Origin: an uncultured Bacteroidales bacterium
GTDB lineage: Bacteria; Bacteroidota; Bacteroidia; Bacteroidales; Paludibacteraceae
Length of the DNA: 47,526 nucleotides
Assembly: GCA_900317345.1 (NCBI GenBank)
Contig: ONGK01000014.1
Coordinates: forward strand, 1 to 47,526
Direction of reading: 5' to 3'
Part shown: positions 1,367 through 47,526 of the stretch, in pieces
How the letters are laid out: every line of letters starts with the position of its first letter
How positions within the stretch are numbered: position 1 is the stretch's first letter
The notes under the pieces: model-generated
What the model was told of the DNA's origin: nothing
The model's database searches: none
What the model saw: the letters and a program-made list of their open reading frames with translations, nothing else
Translations under genes and position numbers: made by a program

Positions 1367-2443
1367 ATGAAACGCAATATAGCAATTATCGCAGGAGGCG
1401 ACAGCAGCGAGTACGAGGTGTCGCTGCGGTCGGCAGCGGGACTATACTCCTTCATGGACAAGGAGCGGTATAACATCACCATCGTTCGGCTGCACGGCCA
1501 AGACTGGCAGGCTCTGCCGGATTATAACGGTACGAACCCGGAGGTTCTGTCCGGCGCAGGCGAGCCGATAGACAAGAATGATTTTTCTTTTGCGCGCGGG
1601 GGCGTGCGTCGCACGTTCGATTTCGCGTATATCACGATACACGGTACACCGGGCGAGAACGGCGTTCTGCAAGGTTATCTGGACATGATCGGCCTGCCCT
1701 ACTCCTGTTGCGGCGTGCTGGCGGCGGCAATGACATTCAACAAATATGCCTGCAACCACTACTTAGAGGGTTTCGGCTTCCATATCGGCAAATCAATCCT
1801 GCTTCGCAAACAGGAATACCGAATGATGAACGAAGACCATAAACTGCGTATCATCGACCAGGTGATGAACGAATTAGGTTTGCCGTGCTTCATCAAATCG
1901 AATGTGGGCGGTTCGTCCTTCGGTTGCACCAAAGCGAAGAAGCCGGACAGCATCCTTCCCGCCATCGAGCGTGCGTTTGAAGAGGGCGACGAGGTGATTT
2001 GCGAATCGTACATGAAAGGAACAGAAGTGACCTGCGGCGTATATAAGACCAAAGACAAAGCGGTCGCTTTCCCGATAACCGAGGTGGTGACGAAGAATGA
2101 GTTCTTCGACTACGACGCCAAATATCGCGGGCAGGTGGACGAGATAACTCCTGCGCGTATCCCGGACGCTGTGCGCGACGCCATCCAGTCGGAGACGCTG
2201 CGTATCTACGACATCATCGGCGCAAACGGCATCATCCGCGTGGACTGGATAATTACTCCGAATGGACAATGGACAATGGACAATGGACAATGGACAGGGG
2301 ATATGCCGAAGATAAACCTCCTTGAGGTGAACACCACGCCGGGCATGACGCCGACGAGCTTCATCCCGCAACAGGTACGGGCTGCCGGTTTGGATATCAA
2401 GGATGTGCTGACGGATATTATCGAGAACAAGTTCTCGAATTAA
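1367..2443 (+). CDS. ddl: D-alanine--D-alanine ligase
   Basis: Ddl joins two D-alanines with ATP in the cytoplasm to make the dipeptide end of peptidoglycan precursors. The N-terminal motif GGDSSEYEVS (residues 10-19), HGTPGENG (92-99), the ATP-grasp glycine-rich segment KSNVGGSSFG (177-186) and LLEVNTTPGM near the end are all present. The length of 358 is a little above the usual 320-340. Part of the excess is an in-frame insert encoded by five copies of the heptamer AATGGAC (2261-2295), giving NGQWTMDNGQWT at residues 299-310, just before the metal-binding EVN strand. The reading frame stays open through the insert. It is the first gene of a plus-strand unit with a prenyl synthase and an unknown protein. 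Function is clear; whether the insert affects activity is not. Confidence 0.95.
   Translation: MKRNIAIIAGGDSSEYEVSLRSAAGLYSFMDKERYNITIVRLHGQDWQALPDYNGTNPEVLSGAGEPIDKNDFSFARGGVRRTFDFAYITIHGTPGENGVLQGYLDMIGLPYSCCGVLAAAMTFNKYACNHYLEGFGFHIGKSILLRKQEYRMMNEDHKLRIIDQVMNELGLPCFIKSNVGGSSFGCTKAKKPDSILPAIERAFEEGDEVICESYMKGTEVTCGVYKTKDKAVAFPITEVVTKNEFFDYDAKYRGQVDEITPARIPDAVRDAIQSETLRIYDIIGANGIIRVDWIITPNGQWTMDNGQWTGDMPKINLLEVNTTPGMTPTSFIPQQVRAAGLDIKDVLTDIIENKFSN
2261..2296 (+). repeat. Heptamer tandem repeat inside ddl
   Basis: Five perfect head-to-tail copies of AATGGAC plus one extra base lie within the ddl coding frame. Three units make 21 bases, so the encoded peptide repeats every seven residues (NGQWTMD). 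This part of the Ddl family is normally a short loop, so the repeat looks like an insertion or expansion. Confidence 0.9.
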
Positions 2444-2480
2444 GTAGAAAGACCGTGGCAAAGCCACTCAAAGCAGAAAA
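2444..2480 (+). repeat. Short palindromic element between ddl and the prenyl synthase
   Basis: GTAGAAAGACCG, then a GTGGC-AAA-GCCAC hairpin, then TCAAAGCAGAAA. The flanks AGACCG and TCAAAG match those of the elements at 34462-34517, 38458-38482, 46571-46610 and 47349-47365. This copy starts just after the ddl stop codon. Confidence 0.6.
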
Positions 2481-2489
2481 AGATTTATT

Positions 2490-3461
2490 ATGATAGATAT
2501 TAACAAAGCAATAGACGCCCTGAAATGGGAGAAAGAGCCGCGGGGACTGTATGAGCCGATATCGTACACCCTGGCTTCGGGCGGCAAGCGTATTCGTCCG
2601 ACGCTGACACTCATCGGCGCAGAGGCCATCGTGAACGGCAGCCTGCTGAACGGCGACGCGATAGAACAAGCGGTTCCTGCCGCACTGGCATTCGAGGTAT
2701 TTCATAACTTCACCTTGATGCACGATGATGTGATGGACCGCGCGGAGATACGGCGTGGACAACCGACCGTACATGTCAAATGGAACGACAACACCGCCAT
2801 TCTCTCGGGCGACCAGATGCTGATAGAGGCCTACAAACTGCTGAGCGATGTGCCGGCAGACAAACTGCCCCAAGTGCTCAAATGGTTCAACGAAATGGCC
2901 ACCGGTATCTGCGAAGGACAGCAGATGGACATGGACTTCGAGCATGAGAGCCATATATCCATAGATGACTATCTGAAGATGATTGAGCTGAAAACGGCCG
3001 TCCTGCTTGCTAACGCTTTGCGTACGGGCGGATACATAGCCGGCGCCAATGAGAGCGAGCAGCAGGCATTGTACGAATACGGCCTGCATATCGGTCTGGC
3101 GTTCCAGATACAAGATGACATCCTGGATGTGTACGGCGACCCGAAGACCTTCGGCAAAGCTATCGGTGGCGACATATGCAGCAACAAGAAGACCTTCCTT
3201 CTTCTTACCGCTCTGGAGACCGCCGACGCAGAGACCAAAGCGGAACTGCTGCAATGGCTGATAGCCACCGAGCATGACGAGCAGAAGAAGATAGCCGCTG
3301 TGACTGCTATCTATAGCCGTCTGGGCGTACGCGAAGCCGGCGAGACCGTCATGGAAGAGCATACATCGCTTGCCCTGGCACAATTAGACAAACTGCCGCA
3401 GAACGCAGCCACAGAGAAACTGCGCGTACTGGCAGAACAACTGGTAACAAGAAACAAATAG
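2490..3461 (+). CDS. Polyprenyl (trans-isoprenyl) diphosphate synthase
   Basis: The enzyme condenses isopentenyl diphosphate with an allylic diphosphate to make linear isoprenoids used for quinones and lipid carriers. GGKRIRP (31-37) binds IPP, and the two aspartate-rich motifs DDVMD (79-83) and DDILD (209-213) hold the Mg-diphosphate. The 323-residue length is normal. Phe74, five residues before the first motif, is a position that often limits chain length, so a shorter product such as farnesyl or geranylgeranyl diphosphate is possible, but product length cannot be settled by reading. It follows ddl by 46 bases and precedes the next gene by 11, so the three are probably co-transcribed. The stop codon is TAG. 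Confidence 0.92.
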   Translation: MIDINKAIDALKWEKEPRGLYEPISYTLASGGKRIRPTLTLIGAEAIVNGSLLNGDAIEQAVPAALAFEVFHNFTLMHDDVMDRAEIRRGQPTVHVKWNDNTAILSGDQMLIEAYKLLSDVPADKLPQVLKWFNEMATGICEGQQMDMDFEHESHISIDDYLKMIELKTAVLLANALRTGGYIAGANESEQQALYEYGLHIGLAFQIQDDILDVYGDPKTFGKAIGGDICSNKKTFLLLTALETADAETKAELLQWLIATEHDEQKKIAAVTAIYSRLGVREAGETVMEEHTSLALAQLDKLPQNAATEKLRVLAEQLVTRNK

Positions 3462-3472
3462 ACCAAAGACAT

Positions 3473-4240
3473 ATGCCTTACCGTCGATTACCTAACACAG
3501 ATTTAGCCCGCTTGCACGCCCTGCAGCACGCTATCCAGCGGGCGCAGTCAGCGGATTTCACCGAACAGGTTATTCCATACAAAGTTCAAAGCGAAGCACA
3601 ACGCTTCCTGGTTCAGTTCGAGAATGTGGTGATGCAGTCCAAAGACAGCTACACCAACGGCGTGAATGCCAACAAACAATACCGCCACATCGTGCAGAAC
3701 GCACGTATGTATATCTCGCATTTCATCCAAGTGCTGAACCTGGCCGTGATACGCGGCGAGATTAAGAAAGAGCAGAAACTGCTGTACGGCCTCGACCCAC
3801 ATCAACATGTGGTGCCGGACCTATCGACGGAGGAATATCTGCTGGAATGGGGCAAGAAAATCATCGAGGGCGAACAGAAGCGAATGGCGAATGGCGGTTT
3901 CCCGATTTACAACCCTGCGATAAACAAGGTGAAGGTGCATTACGATATCTTCTGCGAGCATCAGCGCCAGCACACCTTCCATGTTCAAAACGCCGAGCGC
4001 GTACACGGCGACCTGGAACCGCTGCGCGAGCAAGCAGACAAACTGATACTGAATATATGGAACCTCGTTGAGGATTACTATAAGGGCGAGTACCCCTATG
4101 CGAAACTGCTAAAATGCCAGATGTACGGCGTGATATACTACTATCGCAAGGGCGAACGAAAACTCACGGCCGAAACAGACCGTGAGCTGAAGATGATTCA
4201 GGATAGCCAGCCGACTATCCAATGGTTGAATGAGGAGTAA
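3473..4240 (+). CDS. Conserved protein of unknown function (255 aa)
   Basis: I do not recognise a named domain. The protein is soluble, mostly helical in appearance, with no signal peptide or membrane segment. It is rich in Gln, Tyr and charged residues, and includes YTNGVNANKQYRHIVQNAR and a Tyr-rich C-terminal part (YYKGEYPYAKLLKCQMYGVIYYYRKGERK). The overall look is like hypothetical proteins I associate with Bacteroidales. It begins 11 bases after the prenyl synthase and probably belongs to the ddl unit. Its 3' end overlaps the convergent cyclo-ligase gene by 26 bases. No function is claimed. Confidence 0.8.
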   Translation: MPYRRLPNTDLARLHALQHAIQRAQSADFTEQVIPYKVQSEAQRFLVQFENVVMQSKDSYTNGVNANKQYRHIVQNARMYISHFIQVLNLAVIRGEIKKEQKLLYGLDPHQHVVPDLSTEEYLLEWGKKIIEGEQKRMANGGFPIYNPAINKVKVHYDIFCEHQRQHTFHVQNAERVHGDLEPLREQADKLILNIWNLVEDYYKGEYPYAKLLKCQMYGVIYYYRKGERKLTAETDRELKMIQDSQPTIQWLNEE

Positions 4241-33156: not shown

Positions 33157-34428
33157 TTACTTTTTTGCTTTTGCTTTCAGTTTGGCCTGGAGAGCCTGAA
33201 TCTCTTCTTCCTGATTGCGAATCGTCTTGAGCAACTCGTTCAACTCCTCGTTCTCGATGGTCGTCGGGTATTGCTCTTCCACGCTCTGCAGGAAGTCGGA
33301 CAGCACGTTCATATAGTTGATGAACGCGTCGTACGCGGACTCATACTGCGTCTCGCCCTGGTCGATATGGTTCATGTAATGGAGGTAGTTCACATCCTGC
33401 AGACGCAGCCAGTTGGTCTTCAGCGCCTTGTCCTGGCACAGATGAACACGCTCTGCTACGGCAAACAGTTTGTGAATAGCCTCTTGCTGCAAATCATTAC
33501 CCGCATAGATGCTCAGGTCTTTTGCCTCCCCGCTCCATGTTAGCGGATACGGACTGGAAAGCACATCGGTAGCGGCCATCTTCTTGGCTGCCTCAGCAGG
33601 AGTCATGAAGCCCATCTCGCGCTCCAATGCATAGTACGGAAGAGCTTTGAGGAAGTCAAAGATGCCTGTGCCGGCGTTCTGACGGACACCAAAGGTCTCG
33701 GCACCCACCCAAATGTTAATGATCTCTTCACCTTCCGGCATCGATTGCAGCATGTTTGCGTATTTCTCTGCATCCATCGGGAAATTGGCCCATCCCGGAT
33801 CAGAGAAATGGAAACTCAGCTCGTCGCTCAGGTTCGTATTACGCAACAGCACTTTCATTTTCGGTGCACCCGCAGACTGATACACATGGTTCGGGCTCTT
33901 CCAACTGATGACGTGCTTAGCGCCTTCCGTCAGAATCACTTTGTATCCTAATTTGTTCAGGTTGTAAGCCGTCTCATCCGTGTACAGCAGCTCGGTGTTC
34001 CAAACTGTTTGAGCCTTCACGCCGAAGATGTTCTCCAGCAGTTCACCCTGTAATTTGAGTTGCTTCTTGAATTCCTCTTCGTCATACTCCGACGCCAGCG
34101 AATAGCTGTACGGCGTAGCGAGGAACTCAACACATTTGCTGGCCGCCAACTCCTTGAGGATATCTATCATCTCGGGGTTGAATTGCTCGAACATCTCAAT
34201 CATCGTTCCGCTCACGCTCAACGCGCAGTGGAACTTACCTTTGCTCAGGTTGATCATGTCCTTGATGGTCTGGCAAAGCGGCAGATACGAGGTCTGCACA
34301 AGCCAGTTGATATGCTCTTCTGTCGCCATGTCATCGTAGTAGTAGTGGTCATGGCCGATTTCAAAGAAACGATAGCGCTTCAGACGATACGGTGCGTGCA
34401 TCTGGAAGCAGAAACATATATTTTTCAT
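33157..34428 (-). CDS. Glycoside hydrolase family 57 protein
   Basis: GH57 enzymes act on alpha-glucans (amylase, branching or transferase activity). The protein begins ICFCFQMHAPYRLKRYRFF, where the family usually has H-Q-P. The nucleophile region is TVWNTELLY with Glu146, and LTEGAKHVISWKSPNHVY follows. The fourth conserved block normally reads like MDYETFGEH with the acid/base Asp; here it is VGAETFGVR, so Gly242 replaces that Asp. A C-terminal coiled coil (NQEEEIQALQAKLKAKAKK) ends the 423 residues. In relatives this gene pairs with a GT4 synthase and debranching enzyme, as here. The altered site makes ordinary hydrolysis doubtful. Confidence 0.88.
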   Translation of the reverse strand: MKNICFCFQMHAPYRLKRYRFFEIGHDHYYYDDMATEEHINWLVQTSYLPLCQTIKDMINLSKGKFHCALSVSGTMIEMFEQFNPEMIDILKELAASKCVEFLATPYSYSLASEYDEEEFKKQLKLQGELLENIFGVKAQTVWNTELLYTDETAYNLNKLGYKVILTEGAKHVISWKSPNHVYQSAGAPKMKVLLRNTNLSDELSFHFSDPGWANFPMDAEKYANMLQSMPEGEEIINIWVGAETFGVRQNAGTGIFDFLKALPYYALEREMGFMTPAEAAKKMAATDVLSSPYPLTWSGEAKDLSIYAGNDLQQEAIHKLFAVAERVHLCQDKALKTNWLRLQDVNYLHYMNHIDQGETQYESAYDAFINYMNVLSDFLQSVEEQYPTTIENEELNELLKTIRNQEEEIQALQAKLKAKAKK

Positions 34429-34461
34429 AATACGAATTTTTAATTCTTAATAACCTTTTGT

Positions 34462-34517
34462 CTTTGAGCTCGCTCAGCGAGCGGTCTTTTGTCTTTCTAC
34501 TTTGAGCGAAGCGGTCT
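34462..34517 (-). repeat. Two palindromic elements between the GT4 synthase and GH57 genes
   Basis: Read on the minus strand, copy A (34517-34493) is AGACCG-CTTCGC-TCAAAG followed by TAGAAAG. Copy B (34486-34462) has the same flanks around a GCTCGCTGAGCGAGC palindrome. Bases 34493-34517 are identical to 38458-38482 inside manC. Copy A begins at the last base of the synthase stop codon. Confidence 0.8.
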
Positions 34518-35778
34518 ACAGCGTGTGATTAATCACACCGTCATAAATCCGTCTTACTTTCAGTCCGGCGTCAGACCATTTGATATTGTTAACTTCAGCC
34601 ATACCCAGTTCATGCAGACTCTTGTACATCGCCGGGTATTTAACGATCGCGTAGATAGCATCGGCCATGGCATCGATGTCCCAGTAATCGGTCTTGATGG
34701 CGTGCTGCAGAATCTCTGCGCAGCCTGACTGATGACTGATGATGGACGGACAACCTACCTGCATAGCCTCCAAAGGACTGATACCGAATGGCTCACTCAC
34801 GGATGGCATGATATATACGTCGCTCATCGCCAACATCTCTTGTACCTGCTTGCCGCGCATGAAGCCCGGGAAGTGGAATTTGTCTGCGATACCGCGTTTG
34901 GCCACAAGGTCTATCATCTCTGCCATCTTGTCACCGCTACCGGCCATCACAAAGCGTACGCCGTCCGTCTTGCTCAGCACGCGAGCTGCGGCTTCTACGA
35001 AGTACTCCGGACCTTTCTGCATCGTGATACGGCCGAGGAAAGTAACCAGTTTGTCTTTACGCTCCGGCTTCGTGAACTCTTCCGGATGAGCCAGTGGCTC
35101 TACAGCGTTGTGTACCGTGCTCACTTTGCGCGGGTCTTGTCCGTATTTCTCAATAACCGTGTTACGCGTCAGGTTGCTCACGCACATGATATGGTCGGCT
35201 TCGTCCATACCACGTTTCTCGATAGAGAACACCGTCGGGTTTACGTTACCGCGACTTCTGTCAAAGTCCGTAGCATGAACGTGAATGACTAACGGCTTGC
35301 CGCTGATATGTTTCGCAAACACACCCGCCGGATAAGTCAGCCAGTCGTGGCTGTGGATGATATCGAAGTCCAGGCTATTTGCCAGCACACTTGCTACGGC
35401 TTCATAATTGCCTATTTCTTCAATCAGGTTATCTGGGTAGCGTCCCGAGAAACCGATGCAGCCGAGGTCGTCTGTACCGATGCGACGATAGTCATAGCGG
35501 ATTCCGTCGCGGAAGTGGTAATACTCTTCCGGACTCATCTTGCCTTCCATGCGCGACTTCACGTAGTCATAATTGACGTCTTTCCAGACTACAGGCACAC
35601 TGTTGGCACCGATGATACGAAGGAAACTCTGGTCCTCGTCACCCCATGGCTTCGGAATGACAAATGTGATTTCCAGGTCTTTCTGCTCGCTCATGCCGCG
35701 AGTCAATCCGTAACTCGCTGTGCCCAAACCGCCTAAGATATGGGGAGGAAACTCCCAACCGAACATTAACGCTTTCAT
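34516..35778 (-). CDS. GT4-family glycogen synthase-like glycosyltransferase
   Basis: The protein starts MKALMFGWEFPPHILGGLGTA, the donor-domain opening typical of Bacteroidota glycogen synthases, and has DIIHSHDWLTYPA, the VTFLGRITMQKGPEYF hinge and the retaining-enzyme motif EPFGISPLEAMQVG. It should extend alpha-1,4-glucan from a nucleotide sugar in the cytoplasm. The length of 420 is typical. Its ATG overlaps the debranching enzyme stop as ATGA. It lies in the order debranching enzyme, synthase, GH57, a set known from Bacteroides. Confidence 0.9.
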   Translation of the reverse strand: MKALMFGWEFPPHILGGLGTASYGLTRGMSEQKDLEITFVIPKPWGDEDQSFLRIIGANSVPVVWKDVNYDYVKSRMEGKMSPEEYYHFRDGIRYDYRRIGTDDLGCIGFSGRYPDNLIEEIGNYEAVASVLANSLDFDIIHSHDWLTYPAGVFAKHISGKPLVIHVHATDFDRSRGNVNPTVFSIEKRGMDEADHIMCVSNLTRNTVIEKYGQDPRKVSTVHNAVEPLAHPEEFTKPERKDKLVTFLGRITMQKGPEYFVEAAARVLSKTDGVRFVMAGSGDKMAEMIDLVAKRGIADKFHFPGFMRGKQVQEMLAMSDVYIMPSVSEPFGISPLEAMQVGCPSIISHQSGCAEILQHAIKTDYWDIDAMADAIYAIVKYPAMYKSLHELGMAEVNNIKWSDAGLKVRRIYDGVINHTL

Positions 35779-37880: not shown

Positions 37881-39128
37881 CTAATTGGATTTGATTTCAG
37901 TTACAAACTGCTTTATCCGCTGCTCCTCTGCCTTCTTGCAAATCAGCAACGCTCCTTGCTCTTCCGCAATAATCATATCGTCCACACCTTGCACGATGGC
38001 CACTTTGCCCGGCTCCAGCACAACGATGTTGCCCTCTGCCTCATGGAAATAAGCCTTACTGTGCAGACTCACATTGCGGTTCTCGTCTTTCTCACTCAAC
38101 TCATACAAACTGCCCCAGGTTCCCAAGTCGCTCCAGCCGAAACTTGACGGCAACACGAACACATTGTTCGCTTTTTCCATGATACCGTAGTCGATGGAGA
38201 TATTCGGGCATTTGGGGAAAATCTCTTCGATGAACTGCTCCTCTTTGTCTGTGCCCATGAGCAACTCGCCCTCGCGGAAACGGTCGGCCACTTCCGGCAG
38301 TAAGTAACGGAAAGCCTCGCTTATCGTCTTCAGGTTCCAGATGAAGATACCGCTGTTCCACAGAAAATCGCCGCTCTCCAAGAATACTTTCGCCATCTCC
38401 AGATTCGGCTTCTCCGTAAACGTCTTCACCGGATAAATCCCATCTTCAATTTGTGTGCTTTCTACTTTGAGCGAAGCGGTCTGTGCTCTGTCAACGCAGT
38501 GGTCTTTTCTAAACTGAATGTACCCATACCCCGTCTCCGGACGTGTCGGCTGCATACCCAGCGTCGCAATCGCATCGTGCTGGCTCACAAACGCAAACGC
38601 TTTACGGATGGTGTCGCGGAATTTCTCTTCTTCCAATATCAGGTGGTCACTTGCTGCCACCACGATATTCGCTTGCATCTCCGGCTTGCTCCAGTCGATA
38701 TCTTGATAATTCGGCAGACTACTGTTGCCGCCTTTTACCTTACCATCCTTTGTGAAGCCCTCAAACTGCTTGCTTTCGTCTTTCGTCAAACCATAAGCTT
38801 TTTGCAGGCAGAGGGCGCGGATGTGCGCGGTCGCGTACGCGATACAAGGCGCCGTATTACGACGCGCAGGCTCGCATAAAATTTGACCTTCCGCCAAATC
38901 CGGTATCTGCTCCAATATCATCTGTTTATACGCCACGTTGGTCACTATAAACACATTCTCTATCGGCACTAACGGACGAAAACGGTCCACCGTCATCTGC
39001 AGCAGACTTCTACCCGTGCCGAAAAAGTCCAGAAACTGCTTCGGCTTATTCTCGCGGCTGAACGGCCAGAAACGGCTTCCGACTCCGCCCGCCATGATGA
39101 CGCAATAGTTATTTGAATTATTTTCCAT
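37881..39128 (-). CDS. manC: Mannose-1-phosphate guanylyltransferase
   Basis: The enzyme makes GDP-mannose from GTP and mannose-1-phosphate for surface glycans. The nucleotide-binding start CVIMAGGVGSRFWPFSRENKPKQF, EPARRNTAPCIAYA, ASDHLI, PETGYGYIQF, FTEKP and WNSGIFIW are all present. The length of 415 exceeds the 350-360 usual for the short bacterial form. Two inserts explain it: residues about 108-152 (KAYGLTKDESKQFEGFTKD and after), and residues about 208-230, which are encoded by palindromic elements (38458-38510). The core motifs are intact. A promoter lies at 39295-39325, with an 11-bp tandem repeat in the long leader. Confidence 0.93.
   Translation of the reverse strand: MENNSNNYCVIMAGGVGSRFWPFSRENKPKQFLDFFGTGRSLLQMTVDRFRPLVPIENVFIVTNVAYKQMILEQIPDLAEGQILCEPARRNTAPCIAYATAHIRALCLQKAYGLTKDESKQFEGFTKDGKVKGGNSSLPNYQDIDWSKPEMQANIVVAASDHLILEEEKFRDTIRKAFAFVSQHDAIATLGMQPTRPETGYGYIQFRKDHCVDRAQTASLKVESTQIEDGIYPVKTFTEKPNLEMAKVFLESGDFLWNSGIFIWNLKTISEAFRYLLPEVADRFREGELLMGTDKEEQFIEEIFPKCPNISIDYGIMEKANNVFVLPSSFGWSDLGTWGSLYELSEKDENRNVSLHSKAYFHEAEGNIVVLEPGKVAIVQGVDDMIIAEEQGALLICKKAEEQRIKQFVTEIKSN
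38458..38510 (-). repeat. Palindromic elements inside manC
   Basis: Bases 38458-38482 are identical to 34493-34517. On the minus strand they encode QTASLKV in frame. A looser second copy with AAAAGACC...TGACAGAG lies beside it (38484-38510). The pair encodes residues around 210-226, a stretch that other ManC proteins of this type lack as far as I recall. Confidence 0.85.
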
Positions 39129-39177: not shown

Positions 39178-39232
39178 TAGTGGGTGATTAGTGGGTGGTT
39201 AGTGGGTGGTTAGTGGGTTATTAGTGGGTTAT
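39178..39232. repeat. 11-bp tandem repeat in the manC leader
   Basis: Five units of TAGTGGGTGGT or close variants run head to tail. Two copies of GCTGACGTTGT follow at 39236-39257. The array lies between the manC promoter and its start codon, so it is transcribed. Confidence 0.9.
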
Positions 39233-39294
39233 TACGCTGACGTTGTGCTGACGTTGTGCTAACCTCGCGAAACTCTTCTCACCCAATTAGCGTG

Positions 39295-44013: not shown

Positions 44014-44039
44014 ATATTGTAGTTTAGTATATTTATCGA

Positions 44040-44083
44040 ATCACATATTAATCACATGTTAATCACGTGTTAATAGCCTATTA
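44040..44083. repeat. 11-bp tandem repeat upstream of glnS
   Basis: Three close units of ATCACATGTTA (44040-44050, 44051-44061, 44062-44072) and a degenerate fourth lie between lpxA and glnS, 27 bases before the glnS ATG. The unit sequence differs from those before ddl and manC but the period is the same. Confidence 0.88.
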
Positions 44084-45767: not shown

Positions 45768-46793
45768 TTAATGCTGCCCACTTTGTTTGAACCGCACCAC
45801 CGCTCTGCGCCATATGGCGGCATCGATAGCCGGATAGCCCATATACTGACCGGGCTTCTTGATATTTCCGGGAATACCTGTCTGAGCGCCGAAGATACAG
45901 TTGTCGGCTATTTCGATATGTCCCGCAGCTCCCACTTGTCCGGCAAGGATACAATGCTTGCCTATCTTTGTACTGCCGGCTATACCGACTTGCGCGCAAA
46001 GGAATGTACCTTCGCCCACCTCTACGTTATGCGCCACCTGCACGAGGTTGTCTATCTTCACATTGCGATGGATGATGGTCGAGCCCATCATGGCGCGGTC
46101 GATAGTGGTGTTAGCGCCTATCTCCACATCGTCCTCTATAATCACATTGCCTATCTGCGGAATCTTCCTGTTCACACCCTGCGCGTCAGGTTCAAAGCCG
46201 AAGCCGTCCGAACCTACTGTCACGCCGGCATGGAGCACACACTCAGCGCCGATGACGCAGTGGTGGTACACTTTCACGCCGGCATAGAGCACGGTGTGGT
46301 CACCAATCGTCACATCATCGCCGATATACACATTGGGATAAATCTGCACACCCTTGCCCAAACGCACATTCTTACCGATGTACGCAAAGGCACCGATGTA
46401 CGCATCTTCCGGAACGGCCACACCATCGGCAATGCAGCTCGGCTGTTCGATGCCCTGTTTGGCAGGGTTCAGCGCTTTTGACACCAATTGCAGCAATTGC
46501 CCCATCGCTCCGCGTGCATTCTCCACCAGAATAATAGCCTGCCCATCATTGAGTGGAGCGAGCTTTTGTCTTTTAGCGTAAGCGGTCTTTACTCCTTCAG
46601 CGAAGCGGTCAGAAACAAGCAAAACGCCAGCTTTGCTTGTTTCTATGTACGGCAGATATTTCTCCTCGGTGATAAACGATAAATGCCGCGCCTCAGCGTG
46701 CTCTATTGGCGCTACATCGCTCACCATCGCATTGGCGTTGCCTATCAGTTTGCCGCCCAGCAATGCGGCTATCTGTCCTGCGCTAAATTCCAT
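45768..46793 (-). CDS. lpxD: UDP-3-O-(3-hydroxyacyl)glucosamine N-acyltransferase
   Basis: LpxD adds the N-linked acyl chain in lipid A synthesis. The N-terminal uridine-binding domain (1-100) is followed by a beta-helix of hexapeptide repeats (AVPEDAYIGAFAYIGKNVRLGKG) with GSDGFGF, TTIDRAMMGSTII and QVAHNVEVG containing the catalytic His. The length of 341 is normal. Residues about 62-84 (RFAEGVKTAYAKRQKLAPLND) are encoded by two palindromic elements (46571-46610) and replace or extend a loop. A 12-bp perfect inverted repeat lies at 46612-46643. The genes before and after form HD-domain protein, lpxD, lpxC, lpxA, a usual Bacteroidota order. Confidence 0.96.
   Translation of the reverse strand: MEFSAGQIAALLGGKLIGNANAMVSDVAPIEHAEARHLSFITEEKYLPYIETSKAGVLLVSDRFAEGVKTAYAKRQKLAPLNDGQAIILVENARGAMGQLLQLVSKALNPAKQGIEQPSCIADGVAVPEDAYIGAFAYIGKNVRLGKGVQIYPNVYIGDDVTIGDHTVLYAGVKVYHHCVIGAECVLHAGVTVGSDGFGFEPDAQGVNRKIPQIGNVIIEDDVEIGANTTIDRAMMGSTIIHRNVKIDNLVQVAHNVEVGEGTFLCAQVGIAGSTKIGKHCILAGQVGAAGHIEIADNCIFGAQTGIPGNIKKPGQYMGYPAIDAAIWRRAVVRFKQSGQH
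46571..46610 (-). repeat. Two palindromic elements inside lpxD
   Basis: On the minus strand GACCGCTTCGCTGAAGG is followed by AAAGACCGCTTACGCTAAAAGACAAAAG. These resemble the elements at 34462-34517. They lie in frame and encode residues about 62-76 of LpxD. Confidence 0.75.
46612..46643. repeat. 12-bp perfect inverted repeat inside lpxD
   Basis: GAAACAAGCAAA (46612-46623) and TTTGCTTGTTTC (46632-46643) are perfectly complementary with an eight-base loop. The encoded residues are ETSKAGVLLVS of LpxD. It directly adjoins the palindromic elements at 46571-46610. Confidence 0.85.
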
Positions 46794-47058: not shown

Positions 47059-47110
47059 CAGCGCCTCTTTCTGTGCTTCCGTCACAGCGCCTCTTTCTGT
47101 GCTTCCGTCA
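47059..47110. repeat. 26-bp perfect tandem duplication in the HD-domain gene
   Basis: Units 47059-47084 and 47085-47110 are identical. Each encodes most of LTEAQKEAL on the minus strand. The second copy causes a frameshift. Confidence 0.95.
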
Positions 47111-47348
47111 ACGGTGCGTCCAGCAGCTCTCCGCGGAATAGACGACGGTTGATAAAACTCGTACTCAGCGCACTCAGCACCTTGTCCTCGCTACTCGTCC
47201 AGGCCTTGATGGCACTCAGCACATCTGTGTCGTCCAGTAGCGCGTACTGCTCCAACGCCTCGCTGGTCGGACTGAACATATCGAATGTCACCGGTTGATA
47301 GAGGAAATACCGCAATGCCGGCGAACAGAATAGCTCCTGGCTTTTATC

Positions 47349-47365
47349 TTTGAGCGAAGCGGTCT
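47349..47365 (-). repeat. Palindromic element inside the HD-domain gene
   Basis: TTTGAGCGAAGCGGTCT on the plus strand is identical to 34501-34517 and 38466-38482. It encodes KTASLK in the same frame as in manC. Confidence 0.85.
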
Positions 47366-47526
47366 TTCTATTTTCTACTAACTCCCTTGCCAACTCCTTC
47401 GCCCGACTCAGTATCTTTATCAGATGCTGCTCCGCCGCTACGGAAGTCTTATGCAGATATACCTGCCAGTACATCAACCGGCGAGCTACCAGGAATTTCT
47501 CTACAGAGTATATACCTTTCACCTGC

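Follow-up and report, generated by a model that had tools for sequence, protein, structure and literature searches.

The locus examined here raises the question of what kind of sequence is represented by a short, often palindromic motif that recurs both between genes and in frame within them. The window (that is, the whole stretch of DNA analyzed) comprises 47,526 nucleotides from an uncultured Bacteroidales bacterium of the family Paludibacteraceae and is contig C28 of a 1.96 Mb draft genome of 77 contigs that is 96% complete (hereafter G000). The initial annotation, made from the sequence letters, had reported one recurring plan at five places in the window, three of them inside protein-coding frames. 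All five places could be read as described, and the three in-frame sites were located in a mannose-1-phosphate guanylyltransferase-like (ManC-like) gene (37881-39128), LpxD (45768-46793) and an HD-domain protein (47082-47522). The shared unit plan is AGACC-[G..hairpin..C]-TCAAAG, with a core that starts with G and ends with C. The units, two of their host genes and a neighboring insert are listed below.

2261..2296, plus strand: tandem heptamer (AATGGAC)5.1, in frame in a D-Ala-D-Ala ligase-like gene; an insert of another kind found in the genus
2450..2473, plus strand: hairpin unit AGACC-GTGGC-AAA-GCCAC-TCAAAG, intergenic, between the D-Ala-D-Ala ligase-like gene (1367-2443) and an ORF (2490-3461)
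34462..34487, minus strand: unit AGACC-GCTCGC-TGA-GCGAGC-TCAAAG, intergenic
34500..34517, minus strand: unit AGACC-GCTTCGC-TCAAAG, at the stop codon of gene 34516-35778
37881..39128, minus strand: host gene, ManC-like (Pfam PF00483)
38465..38482, minus strand: unit AGACC-GCTTCGC-TCAAAG, in frame in the ManC-like gene
38483..38505, minus strand: older degenerate unit AGACC-ACTGCGT-TGACAGAGCAC, of another tail type, directly before unit 38465..38482
45768..46793, minus strand: host gene, LpxD (Pfam PF04613)
46571..46588, minus strand: unit AGACC-GCTTACGC-TAAAAG, in frame in LpxD and within its Pfam LpxD domain (match at residues 23-103)
46594..46611, minus strand: degenerate unit TGACC-GCTTCGC-TGAAGG, in the same LpxD gene
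47348..47365, minus strand: unit AGACC-GCTTCGC-TCAAAG, in frame in the HD-domain protein, near the contig end

The units are 18-26 nucleotides long and are often joined by heptamer spacers (TAGAAAG, ACAAAAG, TCGAAAG and others). Each contains a hairpin whose stem, free in sequence, has 2 to 6 base pairs and whose loop usually has 3 bases. The unit at 2450..2473 is flanked by partial heptamers (2444-2480), the two units around 34,500 are separated by TAGAAAGACAAA, and the AG of the TAG stop codon of gene 34516-35778 forms the first two bases of AGACC in unit 34500..34517. The Pfam match of the HD-domain protein was obtained on a near-identical copy in contig C40 of the same assembly; each of the two copies carries a unit, and this site may therefore be counted twice. 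A 26-base perfect tandem duplication (47059-47110), near the contig end, overlaps the 3' end of the HD gene.

When the whole G000 assembly was searched with the pattern AGACCG-N4-20-TCAAAG, 89 matches were found versus 4 for the reversed control pattern, and AGACCGCTTCGCTCAAAG with at most 3 mismatches gave 86 matches versus 3 for its control. The copy number is thus high and well above the chance level with which the initial annotation had proposed to compare it. Among the 89 matches, which include chance ones, cores of 7 (38 matches), 8 (9), 11 (8), 13 (11) and 15 bases (9) fit stems of 2, 2, 4, 5 and 6 pairs with loops of 3, 4, 3, 3 and 3 bases, respectively; 23 of them have stems of at least 4 pairs, with 14 different 5' arms. 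A de novo search for sequences flanking hairpins in 434 kb of G000 yielded little, because chance hairpins swamp short stems.

The pattern is enriched in the genus of G000. We drew 200 genomes from the family, including 35 from this genus; high counts were found, among the genomes listed, in G000 (89), G134 (58), G169 (47), G173 (41) and G185 (40), whereas the listed genomes of other genera had counts mostly near those of their own controls; the largest exceptions there were G013 (15 versus 3 for the control) and G009 (12 versus 2). Low counts also occurred inside the genus (G050, 2; G142, 2; G118, 3). A stem of at least 2 pairs with a loop of 3-4 bases was present in only 1 of the 40 matches listed from 12 genomes of other genera. 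For the related type with a TGACAG tail in G169, 83 of the 100 matches listed (of 106) showed such a stem and loop. For the ManC-like protein, the closest records that carry a name are metagenome-assembled genomes labelled Bacteroidales or Paludibacteraceae, many of them from the rumen or other gut sources.

The stems covary. In a set of 26 distinct 24-base matches visible from the searches of G000 and the family (chance matches included, kinship of the rows uncorrected), 83.8% of stem cells were paired versus 64.2% after shuffling, and 28 double-sided stem changes were counted versus 8.4 ± 2.6 in shuffles, none of 500 shuffles being as high. The pairing signal was lost when the partner was slid. 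On a coarser count, pairs with any double-sided change were not above the shuffles (4 versus 3.3; 210/500). In the TGACAG type of G169, the second stem pair was C-G in 60, T-A in 17, G-C in 15 and A-T in 2 of the 100 matches listed (of 106), and unpaired in 6. Since even the second pair of a 2-pair stem can be any of several complementary combinations, what is made or required in the units would seem to be self-complementarity itself rather than hairpin stability. Neighboring units within one array carry different stems.

To locate the units relative to genes, we applied a unit finder to 594,631 bases of G000, partly chosen around matches; it requires AGACCG and a stem of at least 2 pairs, and therefore misses decayed units. 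This returned 112 candidate units, of which 95 had a tail no more than 2 mismatches from TCAAAG and were kept. These 95 units form 74 sites: 29 in genes in the sense orientation, 11 in genes in the antisense orientation, 30 intergenic and 4 at gene edges. On longest-ORF, uncurated gene calls, which were used for both placement and orientation, 40 of the 74 sampled sites thus lie inside called genes, and the earlier description of a repeat family with palindromic cores that sits both in and between genes holds beyond the window. The units are dispersed and inserted in frame in conserved genes: all 20 host ORFs of G000 that were scanned had a Pfam match. On the basis of the Pfam match and a reading of the sequence, the 20 hosts are TsaB, the HD protein, BirA, DapA, LigA, a beta-lactamase-fold protein, EngB, a TonB receptor, AroA, a HypB-like GTPase, a glutamate-synthase-like oxidoreductase, RecF, RsmH, MurE, RadA, LpxB, a short-chain dehydrogenase, a WecB-like epimerase, LpxD and the ManC-like protein. 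The unit fell within a Pfam domain in 17 of them, between domains in 2 (LigA and RadA) and outside in 1 (the TonB receptor); RsmH was counted as within the domain, although two stretches matched there and the units immediately precede the better one, which starts at profile position 42.

The in-gene units are read from either strand and in several frames, and they yield different peptides; one example of a peptide encoded by the inserts is ESRKTASLKDKS. It had also been proposed that the strand read in genes has no stop codon in any frame. This is correct for the 18-base unit with a TCAAAG tail on the strand read in the window's genes, the only form that is stop-free in all three frames; appending TAGAAAG to a TCAAAG-tailed unit creates a stop in one frame, as does the opposite strand, on which 11 of the 40 in-gene G000 sites are read. 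In the predicted structure of the ManC-like protein, the residues at which the element is read (211-225) have pLDDT below 50 and lie between two predicted strands; residues 16-26 and 335-341 are also below 50, and 330 of the 415 residues are at 70 or above. Nine genes were compared across the window and 19 stretches from relatives (sets of 2 to 19 sequences), and 11 insertion regions with a length difference of at least 5 residues were found, none of them in two of the nine genes; inserts in these genes are therefore limited to few places.

At orthologous sites, relatives were empty or occupied by a different repeat. The ManC site was readable in 50 of 54 loci (some genomes present twice), and most relatives in the genus carry some other in-frame insert there. 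AGACC hairpins are among these inserts, with either a TCAAAG or a TGACAG tail; further loci hold hairpins of the form AATGAGC..CTCAATG or heptamers, of which there are at least five kinds, and in others the site is nearly empty. The insert of the RUG456 record (L076) shows a unit of like kind. The intergenic site at 34425-34525 was readable in all 18 relatives tried; the arrangement of G280 equals that of G000, G310 shares the long stem with a different loop, G201 has another hairpin and TGACAG-type units, G273 has almost nothing, and the others have heptamers or longer repeats. In EngB, readable in 26 of 29 loci, short forms were seen in G273 (LINGEWH), G167 (LVDGSWH) and G158 (LINDEWY), intact five-pair AGACC hairpins in G000, G280, G258 and G169, a short unit in G201, decayed units in G300 and G299, and other repeats elsewhere. 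The EngB hairpin is GCGAC-GCT-GTCGC in G000 versus GCAGC-GAA-GCTGC in G280, G258 and G169, so that two stem pairs differ between G000 and G280, both changed on both sides, and the loop differs too.

The RsmH site, readable in 29 of 30 loci (L346 being G185 and L347 being G258, with L344 and L347 representing one gene), has many short forms, and RsmH of G169 retains CTCAAAG. Some of these short forms may be deletion scars, and the borders of the unit are blurred because apparently empty relatives may be such scars. Other in-frame hairpin families were also observed in RsmH (L340, L341, L342 and L343), namely GCCGGAT-GAC-ATCCGGC and a GGCGG type followed by GAACAGGACAAAG or GAACGGGACAAAG; these hairpins resemble those at loci of RAYT transposases, which are considered below. 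No target-site duplication was seen. Since one species may carry the unit at a site where another has none or has a different repeat, the units are not ordinary conserved coding sequence, the reading that the initial annotation had set against its own. From these differences between species, as opposed to a fresh insertion in a pair of strains, we infer that the units are mobile. Many species share sites whose contents have been replaced, which could reflect conversion or in-place rewriting instead of new insertion.

Tandem heptamers are a second feature of these sequences. In the window and 19 stretches from relatives, exact arrays with period 7 (n=66) and period 14 (n=59) were the most abundant, versus 0 in each of three triplet shuffles, followed by periods 8 (16), 15 (15) and 11 (12). 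The heptamer array at 2261-2296 translates as NGQWTMDNGQWTGD. Arrays with period 11 were also common in 434 kb of G000 (27 of 114 arrays); they were observed at 1106-1148, 39178-39260 and 44039-44074 in the window, at 967-1009 in L188 and at 6612-6654 in L192, and the unit TATCCTATGGG recurs at three places. In addition, AGACC units of 16 bases (AGACC-hairpin-TGAA or TGTA) form arrays at ∼4029-4077 in L279, at ∼2702 and 3630-3662 in L266, and at 87243-87291 in contig C55 of G000; the cores of adjoining units differ, each being self-complementary.

The dominant tail is specific to the lineage. Counts of the TCAAAG and TGACAG patterns were 89 and 11 in G000, 38 and 144 in G201, which is the closest relative of G000 seen (92% identity in the ManC-like protein), and 51 and 8 in G280; in further relatives they were 15 and 133 (G310), 47 and 106 (G169) and 27 and 163 (G187). 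TGACAG-type units persist in G000, including one in the ManC gene that is fused with a TCAAAG unit. This switch of tails looks like successive waves of one superfamily.

With regard to orientation, the AGACC strand was on the mRNA side at 50 of the 63 G000 sites with a clear gene direction, versus a mean of 41.1 expected from permutation of orientation within contigs (P 0.0009). For TCAAAG and TAAAAG tails, in-gene sites of G000 were 28 sense versus 9 antisense, and sites between co-directional genes were 19 in the gene direction versus 1 in the opposite. A different picture was obtained from 18 relatives (19 stretches) and two additional loci, representing few independent places: the in-gene sites, mainly with TGTAAG/TGACAG tails, were 27 antisense versus 3 sense, and the orientation rule is therefore not general. 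TCAAAG units are stop-free in three frames of their own strand and two of the other, and for TGTAAG/TGACAG units the reverse is true; open reading frames may thus explain part of both orientation biases. A replication-strand reading of the orientation was unsupported within contigs (63 sites, draft genome).

Taken together, we consider that each unit is probably a copy of a mobile micro-element that is non-autonomous and is defined by two things, its ends and its self-complementarity. Such an element would consist of AGACC, a hairpin with a free stem and a tail of the TCAAAG or TGACAG type, often adjoining heptamer spacers, and would spread when an activity that recognizes the two ends and the fold copies its short hairpin in single-stranded form, as DNA or RNA. 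Selection would then retain copies that leave the frame open in permissive protein loops and, between genes, copies with the purine-rich strand in the mRNA, as the opposite orientation would place a GC hairpin followed by a U-rich tract, resembling a terminator, in the operon transcript. A reading without any mobile element would have local mutation alone at work, with slippage giving rise to heptamers and template switching to perfect palindromes wherever loops and spacers are free of constraint. The predominance of period-7 arrays (66 exact versus 0 in each of 3 shuffles), the different stems of neighboring units in an array, and the many different repeats that occupy the same permissive site all agree with such a process. 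However, identical AGACC and TCAAAG ends are found at scores of unrelated loci in one genome and are mostly missing from other genera. Such shared ends cannot arise by local mutation alone, and we regard it as a distinctly improbable explanation of the units. The covarying hairpin and the mRNA-sense orientation between co-directional genes might also be expected of a functional RNA or DNA signal (a terminator, an mRNA stabilizer or a protein-binding site) under selection at many genes. This appears highly improbable, given that relatives lack the unit at the corresponding site, or have it in decayed form or something else in its place, that in-gene units are read on both strands and in several frames, that stems of 2 pairs should not be stable, and that tRNA was the only kind of Rfam family above threshold in the window. 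An intrinsic terminator was rejected on orientation: at 19 of the 20 co-directional intergenic sites with TCAAAG/TAAAAG tails, the A-rich tail is in the transcript, and since this tail follows the hairpin in the common orientation, the unit is not the intrinsic terminator of those genes.

Two further rival readings concern the route of copying. Retroposition via an RNA intermediate, as has reportedly been proposed for the small dispersed repeats (SDR) of Nostoc, fits an orientation that follows transcription, but selection against the terminator-like orientation accounts for the bias equally well, and reverse transcriptase (RVT_1) was found in only 8 of 36 genomes of the genus and in none of G000, G134 and G169; no relation between its presence and the number of units was seen among these 36 genomes. 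This route therefore seems improbable. Alternatively, the units could be REP-like elements moved in trans by the RAYT (TnpA-REP, HUH) transposases of the genus, which cut single-stranded hairpins beside short guide sequences, so that stems could vary and ends be kept. RAYT-like genes were searched for with PF01797 and then with an alignment, and the stretches around them were examined for AGACC units. They occur in 36 of 46 genomes of the genus, with at most 10 matches each, fragments included, and across 35 genomes RAYT matches correlate with TCAAAG counts (Spearman 0.44, P 0.008, relatedness uncorrected). Some RAYT genes sit among hairpin arrays with conserved flanks and varying stems, some hairpins are in frame inside the RAYT gene, and at the RAYT gene of G167 (L266) AGACC hairpin units of another tail type were present from ∼150 bases upstream of the gene match. 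According to a previous report (PMC6006769), RAYTs of subclass 2.4 are plentiful in Bacteroidetes and have REPs inside their genes. Against this route, RAYT was not found in G000, a 96% complete draft in which absence is uncertain and which is the richest in TCAAAG units among the genomes counted. None of the 52 RAYT stretches, in which at least one RAYT is covered twice, contained a TCAAAG-tailed hairpin unit; the sole match to the TCAAAG pattern (L271) has a core that is not a hairpin, and AGACC units were present only in L266 and L279, are of the TGTAAG/TGAAAG type, and in L279 lie ∼1 kb away. The RAYT-linked hairpin of G191 has all 7 of its 7 copies at the RAYT itself; among the 11 genomes searched, scattered copies of it (1 to 3 per genome) occur in five others. 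Moreover, the orientation of the units follows genes, not contigs. On balance, we consider transposition by RAYTs of the genus rather unlikely. With respect to the RAYT loci themselves, the transposases (L251, L253, L254 and others) are mostly 340-430 residues long with a long C-terminal part, and near the RAYT gene in L282 (∼3157-3991) we observed twelve regular copies, ∼76 bases apart, of a sequence with GTATTGTTTAC, which we take from their pattern to be a candidate CRISPR array.

If the units are indeed copies of a mobile micro-element, they would be among the smallest mobile elements known, and a stem that varies yet stays complementary would point to a copying activity that reads structure. 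They would also represent a natural insertion-scanning experiment that marks the insertion-tolerant loops of EngB, RsmH, LigA, MurE and other proteins, and proteins of this lineage would carry recent repeat-derived peptides, with consequences for annotation and structure prediction. We tentatively suggest a broader possibility, which we would not yet call probable: an element class in which only two ends (5 and 6 bases) and self-complementarity are fixed, copied by a machinery that reads the fold rather than the stem sequence, may have been so active that, across the genus, it and rival families of heptamers and hairpins occupied the permissive loops of essential-type proteins time and again.

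Literature searches aimed at Bacteroidetes, Bacteroidales and Paludibacteraceae returned no description of such repeats among the matches listed. Among systems known elsewhere, the initial annotation had likened the units to the Rickettsia palindromic elements (RPEs), which, according to PMC10969869, are ∼150 bp long, palindromic and in frame in unrelated conserved genes, each encoding a conserved peptide. The likeness stands insofar as both systems place palindromic repeats in frame in unrelated conserved genes (20 of 20 host ORFs here with a Pfam match); in contrast, the units described here are 18-26 bp, encode no conserved peptide and are read from either strand in several frames; on grounds of size and of the missing peptide they do not belong to the RPEs. 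Heptamer repeats are known from Xanthomonas, where they lie between the same genes in two related species with extensive variation in length and sequence (PMC4692102). The passages on the heptamer repeats of Xanthomonas and Nostoc describe them as G-rich and intergenic and mention inverted repeats, with no separate hairpin unit like the present one. REPs are palindromes of 20-40 bp with conserved tags, in families with alternative complementary stem residues, and CGTC-tagged REPs have been reported from Bacteroidetes, as stated in PMC3733652. The present units resemble REPs in size and stem variation, and the genus has RAYTs, some with hairpins in the gene as in the account of subclass 2.4. 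On the other hand, the foot of the stem here is AGACC, without a GTAG or CGTC tag (GTAG occurs only in some heptamer spacers), no RAYT was found in G000, none of the RAYTs examined lies beside TCAAAG-tailed units, and 40 of the 74 sites are in called genes.

The nearest known kind would be the SDR elements of Nostoc together with their tandem heptamers, a likeness of length, folding and heptamer surroundings. SDR elements, the subject of work by Elhai in 2008, are reportedly ∼21-27 bases long, have a fold backed by compensatory changes, lie within tandem heptamers and are confined to one lineage. The present family differs in that its stems vary freely within one family and genome, its units are in frame in conserved genes, its dominant tail varies between close relatives, and it belongs to a different phylum. 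Nevertheless, a similar combination is found here, namely dispersed units of 18-26 nucleotides with 89 pattern matches, a common hairpin with compensatory changes, and TAGAAAG/ACAAAAG spacers with an excess of period 7 that match the heptamer context ascribed to SDR elements.
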